7,594 nt of DNA from positions 1-7,594 of the forward strand of contig JAPLJW010000293.1 in NCBI GenBank assembly GCA_026388365.1. The letters run 5' to 3'. Below, piece by piece: positions 2 through 6,016 of this stretch. Source of the DNA: Deltaproteobacteria bacterium. GTDB taxonomy: Bacteria > Desulfobacterota > Syntrophia > Syntrophales > UBA5619. Below the pieces are notes generated by a model. The model did not search any database, was not told the DNA's origin, and saw only the letters and a list, made by a program, of their open reading frames with translations. A program made the position numbers and the translations under genes. The stretch's first letter is position 1, and the number at the start of each line of letters is the position of its first letter.

Positions 2-1375
2 ATGATGGTGGCCATGCGGAACGACGGCGCCTCCTTCGGCGGACTGAGCCACAAGCTGATCTCACCCCGCGCCCGCGTTATCCTCCTGGCGTTCATCTAC
101 TTCTACCTTCTGCTGATTGCAGGAGCGTTCGGGAACGTCGTGGTCAGCACGACGACCGGCCTGAAGGCGGCCCCGATGGCCTGGCTCTTCCTGACGATCG
201 CCGGGGTCCTGGCCGGTCAGATGATCTACAAGTGGCGGAAAGACATCATCCTGACGACCGTCGTGCCGGTGTTCATCGCCCTCCTCGGCATCTACCTGGG
301 CACCATCCTTCCCTCCGACCAGGTCCTCGGGGCGTCCATAGCCGGCAGCCGGCCCGTCTGGGCGGTCGTCGCTTTCGTCTTCTGCTACTTCGGCGCGGTT
401 CTCCCGATCTGGCGTTTCGCGCTGCCGATCAACTATGTGGCCTCCTACATCGTTTTTCTCGGGCTCTTCTTCGGAATCGTCGGGATCTTCGTCCTCCATC
501 CCGACTTCACGCTGCCCGCCTATACGGGTTTCTCCATCGGTATCGGACCGCTCTGGCCGATCCTGTTCGTGACCATCGCCTGCGGGGCGATCTCCGGCTG
601 GCACAGCATCGTCTCCAGCTCGGGAACGGCCCGGCAGTTGGAGAATGAACTCGACGCGCGTCCCGTCGGGGGCGGCGTTATGTTGGTCGAAATGCTCCTC
701 GCCGTCTTCGCCCTGGTCATCGCCGGGACGATCTATGCATCCCCGGTGGAATACGGGGCGGCGATCAAGCTCGGACCGGGCGCCATATTCGCGGCGGGGG
801 TCTCCAAGTTTCTGGGCGCCCTGGGGATGCCGGCGGACATCGGTAAATCATACGGGAGCGTCATGATGATCGTGCTTGCGATCACCATCATGCAACTGGT
901 CGTCCGCTTCATGCGCGTGGCGACGTCCGAACTGCTCAGCGATATCAGCCCGGTCTTCCGGAACCCCCATGTCGGCACCTTTATTGCGAGTGTGCTCGGC
1001 ATCATTCTCGTCCTGACGGGGTGGTGGCAGTACCTCTGGGTCCTCTTCGGGGGGGCGAACCAGCTCATGGCGTCGCTGGCACTGATGCTGATCACCGTCT
1101 GGCTGATGTCGGAAGGGAAGAGCTATGCCTGGACCTTCTACCCGATGATCTTCATGTTCGTGACCACCGTGGCGGCGCTCCTCTTCACCTCCTGGAACCT
1201 CCTGCGGAAGGTCCTGGCGGGCGGCGTCCAGGGCGAGGCGTTTGTGGGGAACCTGCTGATGGGGCTGGTGGGGTTCTTCCTCGTCATCTGCGCCCTGATC
1301 CTCGGCTATGAAGGCTTGAAGGCGTTCAAACGATTCCGGACCCTGAAGGGGCAGGCGGCGCCGGCCAAGGCCTGA
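2..1375 (+). CDS. cstA: CstA-family membrane transporter, 5'-truncated by the window edge
   Basis: This is the C-terminal ~457 residues of a carbon-starvation protein CstA family transporter, an inner-membrane carrier; characterised relatives take up peptides or pyruvate. The frame is open to the window edge and the visible start corresponds to an internal family region (an R-N-D-G-A-S segment followed by a hydrophobic helix), so the first visible ATG is probably not the real start. Hydrophobic helices continue throughout. Family hallmarks are CGAISGWHS at about residues 194-202, followed by a serine-rich loop, and FGGANQL at about 349-355. The helix normally carrying a TTLDTATR- or VDAGTR-like motif instead reads T-I-M-Q-L-V-V-R at about 295-302. 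The protein ends in a basic tail (K-A-F-K-R-F-R). A strong terminator 32 bp after the stop separates it from the ATPase cluster. The family call is firm; the substrate is unknown. Confidence 0.9.
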   Translation: MMVAMRNDGASFGGLSHKLISPRARVILLAFIYFYLLLIAGAFGNVVVSTTTGLKAAPMAWLFLTIAGVLAGQMIYKWRKDIILTTVVPVFIALLGIYLGTILPSDQVLGASIAGSRPVWAVVAFVFCYFGAVLPIWRFALPINYVASYIVFLGLFFGIVGIFVLHPDFTLPAYTGFSIGIGPLWPILFVTIACGAISGWHSIVSSSGTARQLENELDARPVGGGVMLVEMLLAVFALVIAGTIYASPVEYGAAIKLGPGAIFAAGVSKFLGALGMPADIGKSYGSVMMIVLAITIMQLVVRFMRVATSELLSDISPVFRNPHVGTFIASVLGIILVLTGWWQYLWVLFGGANQLMASLALMLITVWLMSEGKSYAWTFYPMIFMFVTTVAALLFTSWNLLRKVLAGGVQGEAFVGNLLMGLVGFFLVICALILGYEGLKAFKRFRTLKGQAAPAKA

Positions 1376-1406
1376 CGCGGTTTGCGTAAAATGAATGCAA
1401 AACGTA

Positions 1407-1437
1407 CCCCGTCCGGAAATGGCCGGACGGGGTTTTT
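1407..1437 (+). terminator. Rho-independent terminator after the CstA gene
   Basis: A perfect 10-bp GC-rich stem (CCCCGTCCGG at 1407-1416 paired with CCGGACGGGG at 1423-1432) encloses a 6-nt loop and is followed at once by TTTTT. It lies 32 bp after the transporter stop. The Shine-Dalgarno sequence of the next gene begins only 5 bp after the T-run, so the next gene needs either a promoter upstream of this hairpin or read-through of it. Confidence 0.9.
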
Positions 1438-1454: not shown

Positions 1455-1721
1455 ATGTCGAAAGAAAAAAAGGGCGGCCTGTTTCAGGCCATCAAGGAAT
1501 TTGCCTACGGGGTCGCCGCACACGACTCGGCGCGCTTTGCGCTGAAATCGCGGGCAAGCATGGAGCACCTCTTCATCCTCATCACGATGGGGGACATGCT
1601 TGGCGTCCCCATTCTCCCCCCGTACTATTCGCTGCGGCTGCTGCCCTACGTGGTGCCCCAGATCTCCACATGGAAGCGGCGGATGCTCCGGGAAAAGGAT
1701 CTGACGGACGCCCTGGCATAA
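1455..1721 (+). CDS. Small uncharacterised protein (88 aa), paralogue of the 3800-4084 gene
   Basis: I do not recognise a named family. The protein has a basic N-terminus (MSKEKKGG), a moderately hydrophobic stretch at about residues 39-54 containing GD-x-LG, then LPPYY (54-58), LRLLP (60-64), W-K-R (73-75) and a charged end with M-L-R-E. It is clearly homologous to the small - strand protein at 3800-4084: from the shared Gly-Asp onward 26 of 40 positions are identical. The hydrophobic Pro/Tyr-rich core could lie at a membrane surface or form a hydrophobic binding patch (inference). The start is ATG 1455, with GAGGAG at 1442-1447 giving 7-nt spacing. An in-frame ATG at 1395 would translate through the terminator and is rejected. 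The gene precedes two ArsA/Get3-like ATPases on the same strand, so it is probably co-transcribed and may be their partner or client. Confidence 0.82.
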   Translation: MSKEKKGGLFQAIKEFAYGVAAHDSARFALKSRASMEHLFILITMGDMLGVPILPPYYSLRLLPYVVPQISTWKRRMLREKDLTDALA

Positions 1722-1722
1722 A

Positions 1723-1777
1723 CAATGTTGGGATTTTAATCTCTCCCCAATATTGAAATCTTGCCCTAATATTGAAA
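1723..1777 (+). repeat. Intercistronic hairpin and 10-bp direct repeat
   Basis: CAATGTTGGG (1723-1732) pairs with CCCAATATTG (1746-1755) over 10 bp with one G-U wobble, leaving a 13-nt loop. It starts immediately after the small gene's stop codon. There is no T-run, so it is not an intrinsic terminator; an mRNA-stability or processing role is possible. The right arm overlaps a direct repeat, AATATTGAAA, at 1749-1758 and 1768-1777 (19 bp apart). The segment is much more AT-rich than the flanking genes. Confidence 0.5.
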
Positions 1778-1778
1778 G

Positions 1779-1786
1779 AAGGAGGT
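1779..1786 (+). promoter_or_regulatory. Perfect Shine-Dalgarno without a well-placed standard start
   Basis: AAGGAGGT is fully complementary to the 16S rRNA tail. The only standard in-frame start nearby, GTG 1785, overlaps it. At normal spacing downstream the in-frame codons are ATC (1791) and ATA (1794). A TGA at 1773-1775 closes the frame upstream. The start of the first ATPase is therefore uncertain by up to three codons. Confidence 0.75.
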
Positions 1787-2774
1787 GGTTATCATATCGC
1801 TTACCACGATATTTGAACAATACCCGGACCGGCGCTACATCATGTTCGGAGGCAAAGGGGGCCTCGGCAAAACCACTTTTTCGGCGGCAACAGCCTACTA
1901 CCTGGCCAAGCAGGGGAAGAAGGTCCTCGTCTTTTCCGTCGATCCCCAGGCGTCGCTCAGCGACATTTTTAAGCAGGACATCTTCGGAAAGGGCCCCACG
2001 GAGATCATGCCCAACCTCTACGCCCAGGAGATCGACGCGGACAAAAGGGTGAAGGCCTATCAGCAGGAGATCCGCCAGAAGATCCTTGACATGTACAAGA
2101 TGGAGCAGATCCCGGAGGAGATCGAAAGCTACATCCAGGCGGCGGCAGCGGAGCCCGCGATGGAGGAGAGCGCGATCTTCGACGAGGTGGTGGACATCGT
2201 CGTCAAGGGGGGGTACGACTATTACATCTACGACCTGGTCCCGCTGGGCCATGCGCTTTATTATCTCAGCATGGCCTCGGTTTACGACAGTTGGATCGAT
2301 AACATCACGGGACTCCGGCAGCAGATGCGGGAGTACGACCAGGTGGCCGCGGTCATCCGCAGGGACAAAGAAGAGCTTGACGAGGATGCGATCCTCAACG
2401 AACTTCTCTACATCAAGGACCGGATCAACAAGTCCTCGCGGATTCTCACCGACAAGAAAATGACCGCCTTCTTTTTCGTCCTCACCGCGGAGGAGATGAT
2501 CATCAGCGACACGCTGAAGGCGGCGGAACTCTTTGCCAAGTTCGACGTGCCGCTCTCCGGCTACATCATCAACCGGGTCCTGCCCGCGGAGCTCAGGGAG
2601 CAGAACATCCCCGAGTATCTCAAGAACCGGATCACCATGCAGGAGCATTACCTTCGCGTCATCGACAACCAATTCGGGAAGGAGATCCTCGCCCGGGTTC
2701 CCGAGATGGAACGGGACGTGACCGGCCTCGATATGATCGAGAAGGTGGCAAAGGGAATGTTCGGAAATTTTTAA
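1785..2774 (+). CDS. ArsA/Get3-like P-loop ATPase, first subunit
   Basis: The protein (329 aa if started at GTG 1785) is a deviant-Walker ATPase of the ArsA/Get3 branch of SIMIBI NTPases, a dimeric cytosolic fold that couples ATP binding to partner-protein or metalloid handling. The P-loop is GGKGGLGKTT at residues 22-31 with signature Lys24. Switch I is SVDPQASLSD (51-60) and keeps Asp53, equivalent to catalytic Get3 D57, but lacks the usual His of DPAH. EID at 82-84 and a P-A-M-E-E-S-A segment near 124-130 match ArsA/Get3 landmarks. Switch II is DLVPLGHALYYL (150-161), against the usual DTAPTGHTLRLL. The adenine-site Asn is in I-I-N-R. There is no CxxC zinc motif, so it is neither a classical Get3 nor a fused double-domain ArsA. 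It lies 28 bp before a second ATPase of equal length. The start codon is uncertain. No client is evident beyond the small neighbours. Confidence 0.9.
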   Translation: MVIISLTTIFEQYPDRRYIMFGGKGGLGKTTFSAATAYYLAKQGKKVLVFSVDPQASLSDIFKQDIFGKGPTEIMPNLYAQEIDADKRVKAYQQEIRQKILDMYKMEQIPEEIESYIQAAAAEPAMEESAIFDEVVDIVVKGGYDYYIYDLVPLGHALYYLSMASVYDSWIDNITGLRQQMREYDQVAAVIRRDKEELDEDAILNELLYIKDRINKSSRILTDKKMTAFFFVLTAEEMIISDTLKAAELFAKFDVPLSGYIINRVLPAELREQNIPEYLKNRITMQEHYLRVIDNQFGKEILARVPEMERDVTGLDMIEKVAKGMFGNF

Positions 2775-2802
2775 CGGGGTGAAGCGTTTAAGGAGGATAA
2801 CC

Positions 2803-3792
2803 GTGGATCAGATCACGATCAGCATGACCCAGTACATGAAGAACCACCCGCGGATGAAGTACATCTTTTTCGGCGGCAAGGGGGGCGTGGGCAAGACGGT
2901 CATGGCGGGAACGGCGGCGTTGTGGGCCGCCAAGCAGGGGAAAAAGACGCTCCTGGCCTCGACCAATCCCGTCCACAGCCTCTCCAGCCTCCTGGAGCAG
3001 GATGTCTTCGGCAAGGCGGCCGTCGTCTGCGATGAGCAGAACTGTTACGCCTTCGAGATCGACACCAAGGACACCATCGAACGGTCCAAAAACGAAATCC
3101 GGAAAAAGATGAACTGGTTCCTGAAGTTCGCCGACATCACGACCAAGGCCGACGACTTCGTCGAGTCGGCCACGATGAACCCGGCCTTCGAGGAATCAGC
3201 GATGTTCGAGAACATGGTCGATTTGATGTTCAAGAACGAATACGACTTCTACGTCTTCGACACCGCGCCCACCGCCAACGCCCGGCGGCTCCTGGGGATG
3301 TCGAAGGTGTACTCCCTCTGGGTGGACAAAATGCTCAAGAGCCGGGAGGAGGCGAAGACCCTCCGGGAGCTGCTCTCCTACACAAAGAAAAAGGAGTCGG
3401 ATCCGCTCCTGGACGATCTCCTCGCCTTCAAGAACCGGATGGGCAAGGCAGCGGAACTGCTCAAGGACGAGGCGCTCACCGCCTTCTTCTTCGTCACGCT
3501 GCCGGAGAGCCTTCCCATCGCTGTCATCACCCGGTTCATCAACTGGTTCCATGAATTCGGGATCCCCGTGGGGGGCGTCATCGTCAACGGGCTGATCCAG
3601 AAGGAGCAGGCCGGCGCGGACACCATCGACTTCGTCAAGAACCGGATCCTGATGCAGGAAGAGCACATGAAGGAGATCTGGGAGATCTTCGGCGACCGCG
3701 TCCGGGCGATCGCGCCGCTCCTCGAAACGGAGATCAAGGGGGCGAAGATGCTCAACCGGACGATCGATTACCTCTTCGTCCCGGAGAAATAG
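2803..3792 (+). CDS. ArsA/Get3-like P-loop ATPase, second subunit with Switch I Asp-to-Asn
   Basis: This 329-aa paralogue of the preceding ATPase has the same ArsA/Get3 architecture. The P-loop is GGKGGVGKTV (24-33) with signature Lys26. Switch I is STNPVHSLSS (53-62): Asn55 replaces the Asp that activates water in Get3 (D57), and the second conserved Asp is Ser62. EID is at 85-87. N-P-A-F-E-E-S-A (126-133) matches the first subunit. Switch II starts canonically, DTAPT (153-157), then reads ANARRLL instead of GHTLRLL. The adenine-site Asn is in V-I-V-N-G. No CxxC motif is present; C76 and C81 lie elsewhere. The chosen start, GTG 2803, follows AAGGAGG (2790-2796) by 6 nt; an upstream in-frame GTG (2779) has no such site and would include the SD in coding sequence. 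It is probably slow or inactive as an ATPase alone and likely pairs with its neighbour (inference). Confidence 0.92.
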   Translation: MDQITISMTQYMKNHPRMKYIFFGGKGGVGKTVMAGTAALWAAKQGKKTLLASTNPVHSLSSLLEQDVFGKAAVVCDEQNCYAFEIDTKDTIERSKNEIRKKMNWFLKFADITTKADDFVESATMNPAFEESAMFENMVDLMFKNEYDFYVFDTAPTANARRLLGMSKVYSLWVDKMLKSREEAKTLRELLSYTKKKESDPLLDDLLAFKNRMGKAAELLKDEALTAFFFVTLPESLPIAVITRFINWFHEFGIPVGGVIVNGLIQKEQAGADTIDFVKNRILMQEEHMKEIWEIFGDRVRAIAPLLETEIKGAKMLNRTIDYLFVPEK

Positions 3793-3799
3793 ACGCCTC

Positions 3800-4084
3800 C
3801 TACAGGTCGGTCGCCTTGTCCATCAGGTCCCGCTCCCGCAGCATGCTCCGTTTCCACGCCTTCAGCTCCGGGAGGATATGGGGCAGAAGCCTCAATGTGT
3901 AGTAAGGCGGGAGCAAGGGGAGGCCGAGAAGATCGCCGAAAAGGATCAGCGTAAAATATTGATTGAGCGTTCCCCTCTCCTTCCGCAGGGAAACGTCCAT
4001 TTCGTATGTGGTGAATCCGTAGAGAACTTGCCGTAACGTCCGGCCATAACGCCGAAGGATGATGAACAAATCGGAAGATTTCAC
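3800..4084 (-). CDS. Small uncharacterised protein (94 aa), inverted paralogue of the 1455-1721 gene
   Basis: This second copy of the small-protein family is transcribed toward the ATPases, its stop 7 bp from the stop of the second ATPase. The core matches the first copy: GD-LLG (50-54), LPPYY (58-62), LRLLP (64-68), W-K-R (77-79), M-L-R-E, then D-L-x-D. The N-terminal 40 residues differ and are basic and amphipathic. The start is GTG 4084, preceded on the - strand by GAGGAGG and GGAGAAGGGG; the nearest purine-rich match is only a fair SD. Similarity to its paralogue is strong in protein but modest in DNA, so the duplication is old and the copies have probably specialised. The function is unknown; a partner of the ATPase pair is the natural hypothesis. 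A TATAAC on the - strand upstream could be a -10, but no convincing -35 is seen. Confidence 0.82.
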   Translation of the reverse strand: MKSSDLFIILRRYGRTLRQVLYGFTTYEMDVSLRKERGTLNQYFTLILFGDLLGLPLLPPYYTLRLLPHILPELKAWKRSMLRERDLMDKATDL

Positions 4085-4592: not shown

Positions 4593-5321
4593 CTATTTCA
4601 CGGTGTACCCGCGGCCGTCGAGGCAGGCGGACATCGCCCGCTGATAGTCCGCGCGCTTCTCGATCTTCAGAGGTTCGGGCGAACCGCCAGGCGGCTGCGT
4701 CGGGTCGAAACCGGTCTGGTCCACCGCCCAGCGGTGGCATGCATACCGATCATCGGCCTGCTGCTTTTCACTCTGTCCCTGGCGGGGATAGATGAACATC
4801 TGTTCCGCCGGCGGCGGCGCCTGACTGACTTCCTCCTTCGGCGGCTCGACGACCACGTAACCGTTCCCCCGGTTCGCGTAATAGACTTCGTTGGCATAGT
4901 AGTAAGGTACGCCGTGCAGCCAGATCGTCGAGTAGTAGGACGGGAGGAAAGGCATGAAGAGACCGATCGGAGGCACGACGACGGCGAAGCGTGGCCCCTG
5001 CGGGCGGTACCAGGCCCCTCCGGAGAAATAGTATCGTGCGCCGCCGTGAACTACCACCCGGTGGTCGCGGGGCAATGCGCCGATCACCTGACCGTGGGCC
5101 GGGTAGGAACGGTCGTGGTGATAACGGGAATCCTGGAATTGGCGTAAGTCCGAACGGCGGTGATCTAACTGTGCCGAGACGGGTCTCTCGGGGGACACAC
5201 GGCGATCGGGACGATCCGGCTGCGCTGAGGCCCACACTGGCCCGGACAGCATCACTCCCGACAACAGGACCAGCATCAACCCGAATGCAAAATACAGGTT
5301 TGTCTTGTAATGGCTTGCCAT
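4593..5321 (-). CDS. Secreted DUF6515-like protein with a C-terminal module shared with its neighbour
   Basis: This is a 242-aa exported protein. The signal peptide spans residues 1-33 (hydrophobic core LMLVLLSGVMLSG, likely cleavage after W-A-S-A). A polar Arg/Asp/His-rich linker follows. At roughly 90-165 lies a Tyr/Gly/Val-rich domain resembling DUF6515: an HGGARYYFSGGAWYR segment, a V-V-V-P-P-I-G stretch, H-G-V-P-Y-Y-Y and GYVVVEPP. From about 176 the tail matches the upstream lipoprotein: YPRQGQ, then a Cys-x2-WAV-x-QTGFDP motif, and RAMSACLDGRGYTVK at the very end. It may act as a periplasmic or outer-envelope structural protein; no enzyme motif is seen. The start ATG 5321 follows AAGGAGG by 8 nt; an upstream in-frame ATG (5381) has no comparable site and would extend past the signal peptide. 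It lies 56 bp downstream of the lipoprotein gene on the same strand, so it is likely its operon partner. Confidence 0.85.
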   Translation of the reverse strand: MASHYKTNLYFAFGLMLVLLSGVMLSGPVWASAQPDRPDRRVSPERPVSAQLDHRRSDLRQFQDSRYHHDRSYPAHGQVIGALPRDHRVVVHGGARYYFSGGAWYRPQGPRFAVVVPPIGLFMPFLPSYYSTIWLHGVPYYYANEVYYANRGNGYVVVEPPKEEVSQAPPPAEQMFIYPRQGQSEKQQADDRYACHRWAVDQTGFDPTQPPGGSPEPLKIEKRADYQRAMSACLDGRGYTVK

Positions 5322-5425
5322 AGCTCTTGCCTCCTTGAAACCGGATAGGGGTTGTCGATCAAGGTTCATCGTATTTCTCACCGCACGGTGTAGCCGCGGC
5401 CTTCAAGGCAGGCGGACATCGCCCG
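4600..5425 (-). repeat. Direct DNA repeats between the two envelope genes (4600-4640 and 5385-5425)
   Basis: The 41-bp segments at 4600-4640 and 5385-5425 differ at 3 positions; each encodes the end of its protein (RAMSAC, then GRGYTV). A second shared segment, TCGAAACCGGTCTG, occurs at 4705-4718 and 5715-5728, followed in both by ACCGCCCA; it encodes part of QTGFDP. DNA conservation this high between otherwise different genes suggests duplication of the ends of one gene or gene conversion. Confidence 0.85.
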
Positions 5426-6016
5426 CCGGAAGCCGGCCGACTTTTCTCCAAGCTTGGCGTCGCGGACCCGTCCCTGCGCGGCATAGGCCTCCTCCTGTTG
5501 CCGGGCATATTCCGCCCTCGCCGAATCCGATGCGGCGCCGGCCATCATTCCCCCGGTCGCTCCGATCAGGGCGCCTCCCCCTGCATGCCGCGGCCCGCCG
5601 ATCAGCGCACCGAGCACCGCGCCGGCTATCGTGAACGCAACGGTATCGTGCCCCAACGGAGGCATCGGCACGACGCTGACGCGCTGATCCGTCGGGATCG
5701 CCGACTGCCCCGGATCGAAACCGGTCTGCTGGACCGCCCAGTTGTAACATTCGTAGTGGTCGCGGGACTGCTGTTCCGTTGTCTGACCCTTCATCGGGTA
5801 AAAAAAGACCTGTGTCGAGGGAACTGGGGCCTCGGCGGCCTCCCCGGGCATGGATTGCGGAATCGGCCGATAGGGTACGGGATAGCATGCCGACACGACA
5901 AGGACGGCCAGGAAAAGAGAAATCCAGACGAGGGCTCCGGACGCCCTCCGCAGATTCTGCCCGATCCTCTCTGTCCGATCCTCGCCGGCCGTCTTCCTGC
6001 AGATCGAGATTTTCAT
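5378..6016 (-). CDS. Glycine-zipper lipoprotein
   Basis: This 212-aa protein is probably a lipoprotein of the outer membrane or periplasm. It has an unusually long basic N-region (residues 1-26), a hydrophobic segment WISLFLAVLVVSA (31-43) and a lipobox V-S-A-C with Cys44 as the acylation site. A module at about 71-104 (F-F-Y-P, GQTTEQQ, an E-C-Y-N-WAV segment and QTGFDP) is shared with the downstream gene. A glycine-zipper segment at about 131-161 (AGAVLGALIGG, then GGGALIGATGGMMAG) resembles those that insert in or span membranes. An Ala/Arg/Gln-rich helix and RAMSACLEGRGYTVR at the end follow. The start ATG 6016 has AAGGAG 8 nt upstream, which supports the long N-region despite the distance to the lipobox. 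It heads a likely two-gene operon; a sigma-54-type promoter lies about 110 bp upstream. The exact role is unknown. Confidence 0.85.
   Translation of the reverse strand: MKISICRKTAGEDRTERIGQNLRRASGALVWISLFLAVLVVSACYPVPYRPIPQSMPGEAAEAPVPSTQVFFYPMKGQTTEQQSRDHYECYNWAVQQTGFDPGQSAIPTDQRVSVVPMPPLGHDTVAFTIAGAVLGALIGGPRHAGGGALIGATGGMMAGAASDSARAEYARQQEEAYAAQGRVRDAKLGEKSAGFRRAMSACLEGRGYTVR

Follow-up and report, generated by a model that had tools for sequence, protein, structure and literature searches.

Operons that join the carbon starvation protein CstA with a small protein, CstX, and an ATPase of the ArsA type have been described previously. In the sections devoted to these operons, Castillo and Saier (2010; PMC2963123) report 26 CstA-ArsA associations, 24 of them with a small CstX, and propose that ArsA energizes CstA with CstX as the linker. 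Adjacent ArsA pairs are reported there for 'Par' and 'Sth' and two CstX paralogues for 'Par' and 'Tko'. The same sections suggest possible homodimers of single-domain ArsA, mention that the switch-I Asp can be Asn in such proteins, and call CstX a protein with one transmembrane segment. We analyzed a 7,594-nucleotide stretch of DNA from a Deltaproteobacteria bacterium (assembly GCA_026388365.1, contig JAPLJW010000293.1; the window), which carries genes for two ATPases of the ArsA/Get3 type (ATPase1 and ATPase2) and for two small CstX-like proteins (small1 and small2). The described operons comprise CstA, a small protein of about 90 aa, and single-domain ArsA of about 330 aa, without arsR; the window has an adjacent CstA, small proteins of 88 and 94 aa, and single-domain ArsA proteins, and no ars gene turned up when eight window proteins were scanned with Pfam and NCBIfam models.

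The original prediction for this locus, made from the sequence alone, knew of no described system with this layout, which was wrong because Castillo and Saier (2010) had described such operons, including ArsA pairs and doubled CstX. Its four open reading frames (ORFs) are all present with the last small gene inverted, and no arsenite transporter or arsR was found among the eight proteins scanned, as it had stated. However, it suggested an unnamed membrane or hydrophobic partner as the client and left out CstA, which is the gene directly upstream of small1, a fifth member beside the four-gene set, and the constant partner. On balance we lean toward the reading that CstA is gated or energized by an obligate ATPase1-ATPase2 heterodimer docked via CstX.

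Linkage of CstA, CstX, and the ATPase pair

Related loci (numbered L; genomes are numbered G) were the best 80 of 353 found when GTDB genomes were scanned with a small-family alignment. CstA, small1, ATPase1, and ATPase2 follow each other in this order on one strand in 64 of the 80 loci, with several phyla represented. CstA lies within 1 kb upstream of small1 on the same strand in 72 loci. Both ATPase genes are likewise present in 72, and the contigs of the other eight stop 68 to 1,778 bp past small1. One ATPase was not seen on three of these short contigs (L032, L049, and L052) and neither was seen on five (L028, L055, L057, L062, and L066). For L055, L057, and L062, no ATPase is found in the 0.7 to 1.3 kb present; truncation is likely but not proven, and the wider gene spacing in their kin L048 and L054 is compatible with it. 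Eight loci have both ATPases without a same-strand upstream CstA. The contigs of L035, L046, L065, and L051 offer less than 1 kb upstream, and no CstA was seen there; CstA is rearranged in L070 (divergent) and L071 (downstream on the opposite strand), and none was found within about 8 kb in L073 and L078. L070 and L097 are the same contig, counted twice in the ATPase rows. The CstA of L001, used as a query against the genomes of these eight loci, found a match in six, and none in the draft genome of L035.

Because the 80 loci were selected by their likeness to the small protein, genome samples drawn from phyla are a fairer test of linkage. Two were used, each including its centre genome: 118 genomes from the phylum of L001 (G001) and 151 genomes from the phylum of L076 (G006). 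Both confirm the linkage of the genes. The 118-genome sample has the small family in 16 genomes and CstA in 59. Its neighborhoods were tallied by hand with PF02374 positions, using only sites beside CstA or small genes. CstA, a small gene, and the ATPase pair occur together in ten genomes (CstA being divergent in G067), and CstA and a small gene occur with a single ArsA in G048, G084, and G117. CstA stands with two small genes in G015, where the contig end interrupts the ATPase; G029 carries the pair and a small gene on a 5.6-kb contig lacking CstA, and G104 has a lone small gene on a short contig. Among the 16 small-bearing genomes, CstA adjoins in 14 and an ArsA-type ATPase in 15. A single ATPase stands beside the small gene in three of these 15. 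In G036 and G115 the search gave no small match, yet a weak small ORF (18 to 21 bits) lies between CstA and ArsA. PF02374 matches occur in all 118 genomes, including remote P-loop kin, with strong CstA-distant ArsA of up to 339 bits (G085); therefore, the link to the small family does not extend to ArsA-type ATPases at large.

For the 151-genome sample, CstA was accepted at E values up to 1e-20 and ATPase2-type proteins above 250 bits. The small family was found in 16 genomes, CstA in 17, and ATPase2-type proteins in 16. In 15 of the 16 small-bearing genomes, the distance from the small gene to CstA is at most 1.5 kb. The co-occurrence of the small family with the ATPase pair expected by the original prediction is borne out here: 15 of the 16 small-bearing genomes have an ATPase2-type gene, and in 12 of these 15 the pair shares a contig with a small gene, at a distance of about 0.7 kb or less. 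The two are on separate contigs in G133, G146, and G246. A second ATPase (141 to 239 bits to the ATPase2 query) adjoins ATPase2 in 15 of 16 genomes; in G133, ATPase2 begins 394 bases into the contig. CstA was not found in G133 (small gene and ATPase2 present), an ATPase was not found in G268 (small gene and CstA present), and the small gene was not found in G236 (CstA and the pair present). A further 41 genomes have only remote ArsA matches of at most 121 bits.

Active sites of the pair and the start of ATPase1

The original prediction had assigned both ATPases to the ArsA/Get3 type, in tandem, and the profiles agree. PF02374 matches with E values of 2e-69 (ATPase1) and 3e-65 (ATPase2), and TIGR00345 (GET3/ArsA/TRC40) gives 228.3 and 207.1 bits, both above the cut-off of 135. 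The two are 33% identical over 326 aa, and both keep the P-loop GKGGxGKT with the intradimer Walker A lysine. It was also correct about the missing Get3 zinc motif: CxxC occurs in none of 77 ATPase1 rows and none of 73 ATPase2 rows, the window included.

The active sites of the two ATPases differ in a fixed manner. In the window, ATPase1 has SVDPQA at switch I, with the Asp kept, and DLVPLGH at switch II. The Asp is present in 77 of 77 ATPase1 rows, and switch II reads DLVPLGH in 76 and DLAPLGH in one, compared with DTAPTGH. ATPase2 has Asn in place of the switch-I Asp in 73 of 73 rows; its switch II is DTAPTAN in 70, with two variants and one gap. Six further pairs show the same Asp/Asn split (two remote ones with switch II DMPPFGH and DTAAVAN), and all 11 outgroup ArsA proteins have the Asp. 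Alignments to the nearest solved relatives, archaeal 3ug6 and 3zq6, put the switch-I residues at the site of the catalytic Asp, which we take to be D57 of Get3 in the STDPAH motif. In yeast Get3, D57 primes the attacking water (PMC10248533). In a tree built with a quick method, ATPase1 and ATPase2 each fall on one side of a branch and are sisters among the rows used. The Asn of ATPase2 is the distinctive mark of the pair.

A second difference concerns translation. The original prediction gave both ATPases 329 aa, which holds for ATPase2. For ATPase1, the GTG that would give this length sits inside the Shine-Dalgarno sequence, and the window start codon is probably the ATA at position 1794. Over 77 rows, the codon at the aligned start is ATT in 50, ATG in 16, ATA in 4 (window included), ATC in 3, GTG in 2, TTG in 1, and CCA in 1. 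The apparent start of ATPase1 is thus AUU, AUA, or AUC in 57 of 77 genes, preceded by an extended Shine-Dalgarno sequence (positions 1779 to 1796 in the window). No in-frame ATG, GTG, or TTG occurs back to the upstream stop in 16 of these 57 rows (15 distinct loci), nor does one occur there before the Met adjoining the P-loop. In 39 of the 57, a GTG lies three codons upstream, within the Shine-Dalgarno sequence, some with another candidate farther up. ATT at the start was observed 50 times versus 11 expected from the Ile codon use of the same genes; the simulated p value of this excess is a guide only, the sequences being related. A standard start with a short Shine-Dalgarno sequence was found for 69 of 71 ATPase2 genes and 75 of 81 small1 genes, by a looser test that accepted any ATG, GTG, or TTG in the position range. 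The nonstandard start needs five changes on the ATPase1 tree, and it is absent from four further ATPase1 genes of the 151-genome sample, all of which have ATG (two remote genes were not counted). Non-AUG starts with extended Shine-Dalgarno sequences are reported for infC, cvfC1, and ccpN of Staphylococcus aureus (PMC13009471) and AUU starts for infC and pcnB of Escherichia coli (PMC9410913). The pattern of ATPase1 would extend this short list (infC, pcnB, cvfC1, and ccpN) by a widespread gene.

CstX, CstA, and the proposed mechanism

Small1 and small2 are paralogous, as the original prediction had it (44% identity over 75 aa; E value of 2e-19). They score 36.8 and 34.8 bits against the cory-CC-star model NF041419 (cut-off of 80). 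At 98.4% (hhalign), a profile of the small family matched eight proteins in the CstX position of CstA-ArsA loci, of which two bear the name cory-CC-star. PF25952 is carried by 120 of 120 small1 homologues among the matches listed, and it is absent from the Pfam scan matches of the window proteins. The AlphaFold model of small1 has three helices and a mean predicted local distance difference test score (pLDDT) of 70.7, too weak for a fold search, and a sequence search of solved structures for the small family gave one chance match (E value of 2.1).

Doubled CstX is common, but its position and type vary. An extra small gene occurs in 16 of the 80 loci (the copy in L064 is a fragment). It is inverted and downstream in six, about 2 kb past small1 in L001, L003, L030, and L046 and farther in L023 and L050, and it lies in tandem upstream of small1 in nine. 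Of the 12 genomes in the 118-genome sample whose small1 is strong (E value of <1e-38), 8 have a second copy, which in three lies elsewhere in the genome; this count leaves out a 32-residue fragment in G091. Two or three copies are present in 15 of 16 genomes of the 151-genome sample. The arrangement with a small gene at both ends, to which the original prediction had drawn attention, recurs there: G215 and G281 (L128 and L129) have the order of the window with the last small gene inverted about 1.5 kb past ATPase2, and G159 and G227 (L130 and L131) have both end genes in line. The small2 of the window falls in a 14-row group distinct from small1 (support 98/99, on only 79 columns), and the extra copies of L039, L049, L066, and L068 group with small1. 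Separately, the CstX-like genes of L095 and L099 have no CstA or ArsA pair within a few kilobases (L099 has a 17-bit ArsA match nearby). The neighbors of five lone small copies, two proteins for each copy, include no transporter in common, and a radical-SAM/TRAM gene adjoins the CstX-like genes of L093 and L095.

The CstA proteins that accompany the pair also form one clade. In a tree of rows of at least 480 aa, made with a quick method that gave a long-branch warning, a branch with 100% support in the Shimodaira-Hasegawa-like approximate likelihood ratio test (SH-aLRT) separates 70 CstA rows from CstA with a single ArsA or none. These are 68 pair-linked rows (beside small1, including L097 and five loci without a visible ATPase) and the rearranged L070 and L071; the rows of L070 and L097 are the same gene. 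CstA is predicted to have the LeuT/APC fold: the AlphaFold model of the L001 orthologue (pLDDT of 86; predicted template modeling score [pTM] of 0.88) matched KimA (VIA Z of 26.8), Nramp (26.0), and ApcT (25.2), and also LeuT by Foldseek. Sequence searches of solved structures found none for CstA and none for YbdD.

Under the mechanism that we favor, ATPase1 and ATPase2 would form an obligate heterodimer of the Get3/ArsA type that binds two ATP molecules and hydrolyzes one of them efficiently, the catalytic switch-I position of ATPase2 being Asn. Through CstX (small1, and often also small2), the heterodimer would dock on CstA from the cytoplasmic side, and its nucleotide cycle would gate or energize the uptake of a small organic substrate by CstA, as ArsA does for ArsB. 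The weak AUU, AUA, or AUC start behind the extended Shine-Dalgarno sequence may keep ATPase1 limiting in many genomes and therefore paired with ATPase2. A stronger version, which we find doubtful and put forward tentatively, is that of an ATP-driven LeuT-fold carrier: the one-site heterodimer, docked by CstX, would convert CstA from secondary transport, with a start sensitive to initiation factor 3 (IF3) limiting ATPase1 in many lineages. The natural Asn subunit makes the question concrete as to which site hydrolyzes ATP and whether this drives or gates a LeuT-fold carrier. If the mechanism holds, the pair would represent the Get3/ArsA machine in a naturally one-site form.

Several observations weigh against the gating or energizing of CstA by a docked heterodimer. 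The clearest exception to the linkage with CstA is L078: small1 and the pair are present in its 7-Mb genome (G004), where the CstA of L001 found no match. A terminator-like hairpin stands between CstA and small1 in the window; its sequence is also present in L001, and it may determine how much carrier is made relative to the accessory proteins. Switch II differs from DTAPTGH in six of eight single CstA-linked ArsA proteins as well (L091, L098, and L087 to L090, reading DMAPTAL, DTPPTGL, and DTAPTGL, with the switch-I Asp intact), so the switch-II change of ATPase1 alone need not mean lost function. Second copies of CstX (L092 to L094, L138, and L139) occur without CstA or the pair within a few kilobases. 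CstX also has no detectable homology to YbdD, the small partner of E. coli CstA. Carriers of the LeuT/APC fold can run on ion gradients alone, and E. coli CstA, with no adjoining ArsA, is named a pyruvate/proton symporter.

The main rival explanation is a biogenesis chaperone: a Get3-like pair would bring CstX, CstA, or both to the membrane and have no part in transport. We consider this rather unlikely. It agrees with the Get3 fold family, to which both ATPases belong by TIGR00345, with the archaeal structures as their closest solved relatives, and with a moderately hydrophobic stretch in CstX (19-residue hydropathy maxima of 1.49 in small1 and 1.35 in small2). The stretch aligned with the Get3 client helices also resembles its 3ug6 and 3zq6 counterparts in length, charge, and overall hydropathy. 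However, it holds one and two Met residues versus seven and five in 3ug6 and 3zq6 and has a slightly lower hydropathy peak, which is a modest difference. CxxC is missing throughout, the hydropathy of CstX is far under that of a CstA helix (2.6), and a single constant partner transporter would be odd for a general targeting factor. With no CxxC and fewer Met residues in an otherwise Get3-like client stretch, the "targeting or assembly machine" of the original prediction is a possible reading without specific support.

It is improbable, in our estimate, that the two ATPases instead form separate homodimers with different jobs and are adjacent through duplication alone. Homodimers were suggested for single-domain ArsA (PMC2963123), and some CstA operons have a single ArsA, but the pairing is strict, with two sister groups in the tree and both genes in 72 of 80 loci, and in a homodimer of ATPase2 neither site would have the catalytic Asp. 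Efflux of arsenite or another metalloid, for which the ArsA-like sequence speaks, is highly improbable: the Cys residues that bind metalloid in arsenical-pump ATPases are lacking, with no Cys in ATPase1 in the window or in 62 of 77 rows (the ATPase2 of the window has two), each ATPase scores about 100 bits against the arsenical-pump model TIGR04291 (cut-off of 650), no ars gene was found among the window proteins scanned, and the partner is CstA.

Window genes and comparison with known systems

Table 1. Features of the window, with strand and the evidence for each
Feature	Position	Strand	Evidence or remark
CstA-family carrier (carbon starvation protein A), 3' part	2..1375	+	PF02554, E value of 2.3e-91; start outside the window
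Hairpin, intrinsic-terminator-like, followed by T run	1406..1433	+	11-bp stem with 9 GC pairs; consensus match only
small1, CstX-like, 88 aa	1455..1721	+	NF041419 (cory-CC-star), E value of 2.9e-9, under cut-off
Extended Shine-Dalgarno sequence of ATPase1, AAGGAGGTG	1779..1787	+	Sequence; composition of 57 upstream regions
ATPase1, ArsA/Get3 type	1794..2774	+	Probable ATA start at 1794; ORF opens with GTG at 1785
ATPase2, ArsA/Get3 type, 329 aa	2803..3792	+	Switch I STNPVH; switch II DTAPTAN
small2, second CstX-like paralogue, 94 aa	3800..4084	-	NF041419, E value of 1.2e-8, under cut-off

Farther along the window, two adjoining genes on the minus strand (4593 to 5381 and 5378 to 6016) encode a DUF6515 protein and one that weakly matches a glycine zipper; the C-termini of the two are nearly alike (RRAMSACLEGRGYTVR and QRAMSACLDGRGYTVK).

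BagA/BagB (Rv3679/Rv3680) are two different Get3-like ATPases encoded as a pair, and structure entry 6bs3 contains both chains. The window ATPases score 39 to 53 bits against NF053622 and NF053621, under the cut-offs of 400 and 521. With Get3/TRC40 they share the fold family and the intradimer Walker A lysine, but they lack CxxC, ATPase2 lacks the catalytic Asp, and the client-helix stretch has fewer Met residues. The ArsA-ArsB arsenite pump is similar in that an ArsA-type ATPase is thought to energize a carrier (PMC2963123); in contrast, the window has two separate single-domain proteins, a Cys-less ATPase1, and another carrier. E. coli CstA works with the small protein YbdD in pyruvate uptake (PMC5847655), which again joins CstA to a small adjacent protein, but YbdD has no profile similarity to CstX and no ArsA gene adjoins. 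CstX was considered as a YbdD homologue and rejected; homology is not claimed because hhalign gave 0.5 to 1% against a YbdD/YjiX profile of only two sequences. PF04328 (YbdD/YjiX, KCU-star) was found in none of the 118 genomes in the phylum of L001.

Cory-CC-star proteins (NF041419) lie between CstA and ArsA on Cytobacillus and Paracoccus plasmids, and both cases are in the eight-protein set compared by hhalign. The two annotated members end in Cys-Cys and stand with one ArsA, whereas the window proteins end in DALA (small1) and ATDL (small2) and stand with two. A full-text literature search for 'cory-CC-star' gave no result. In a plasmid search, the module had no DNA match and small1 no tblastn match; the ATPase1 query found remote plasmid sets of CstA, cory, and ArsA. 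Three haloarchaeal plasmid matches were rejected as similar modules, as they are ArsA genes and the 5 kb around them have no annotated CstA.

The closest system remains that of Castillo and Saier (2010), whose sections on these operons do not mention the Asn-bearing gene of the pair, the split into ATPase1 and ATPase2, or the AUU start (PMC2963123). This analysis adds the start-codon pattern and the constant difference between the two active sites, neither of which is in the portions of the CstA-ArsA literature consulted. Since such operons are described there, we file the window under that system, as a two-ATPase variant of the CstA-CstX-ArsA operon, with the CstX of 2010 compared by its description.

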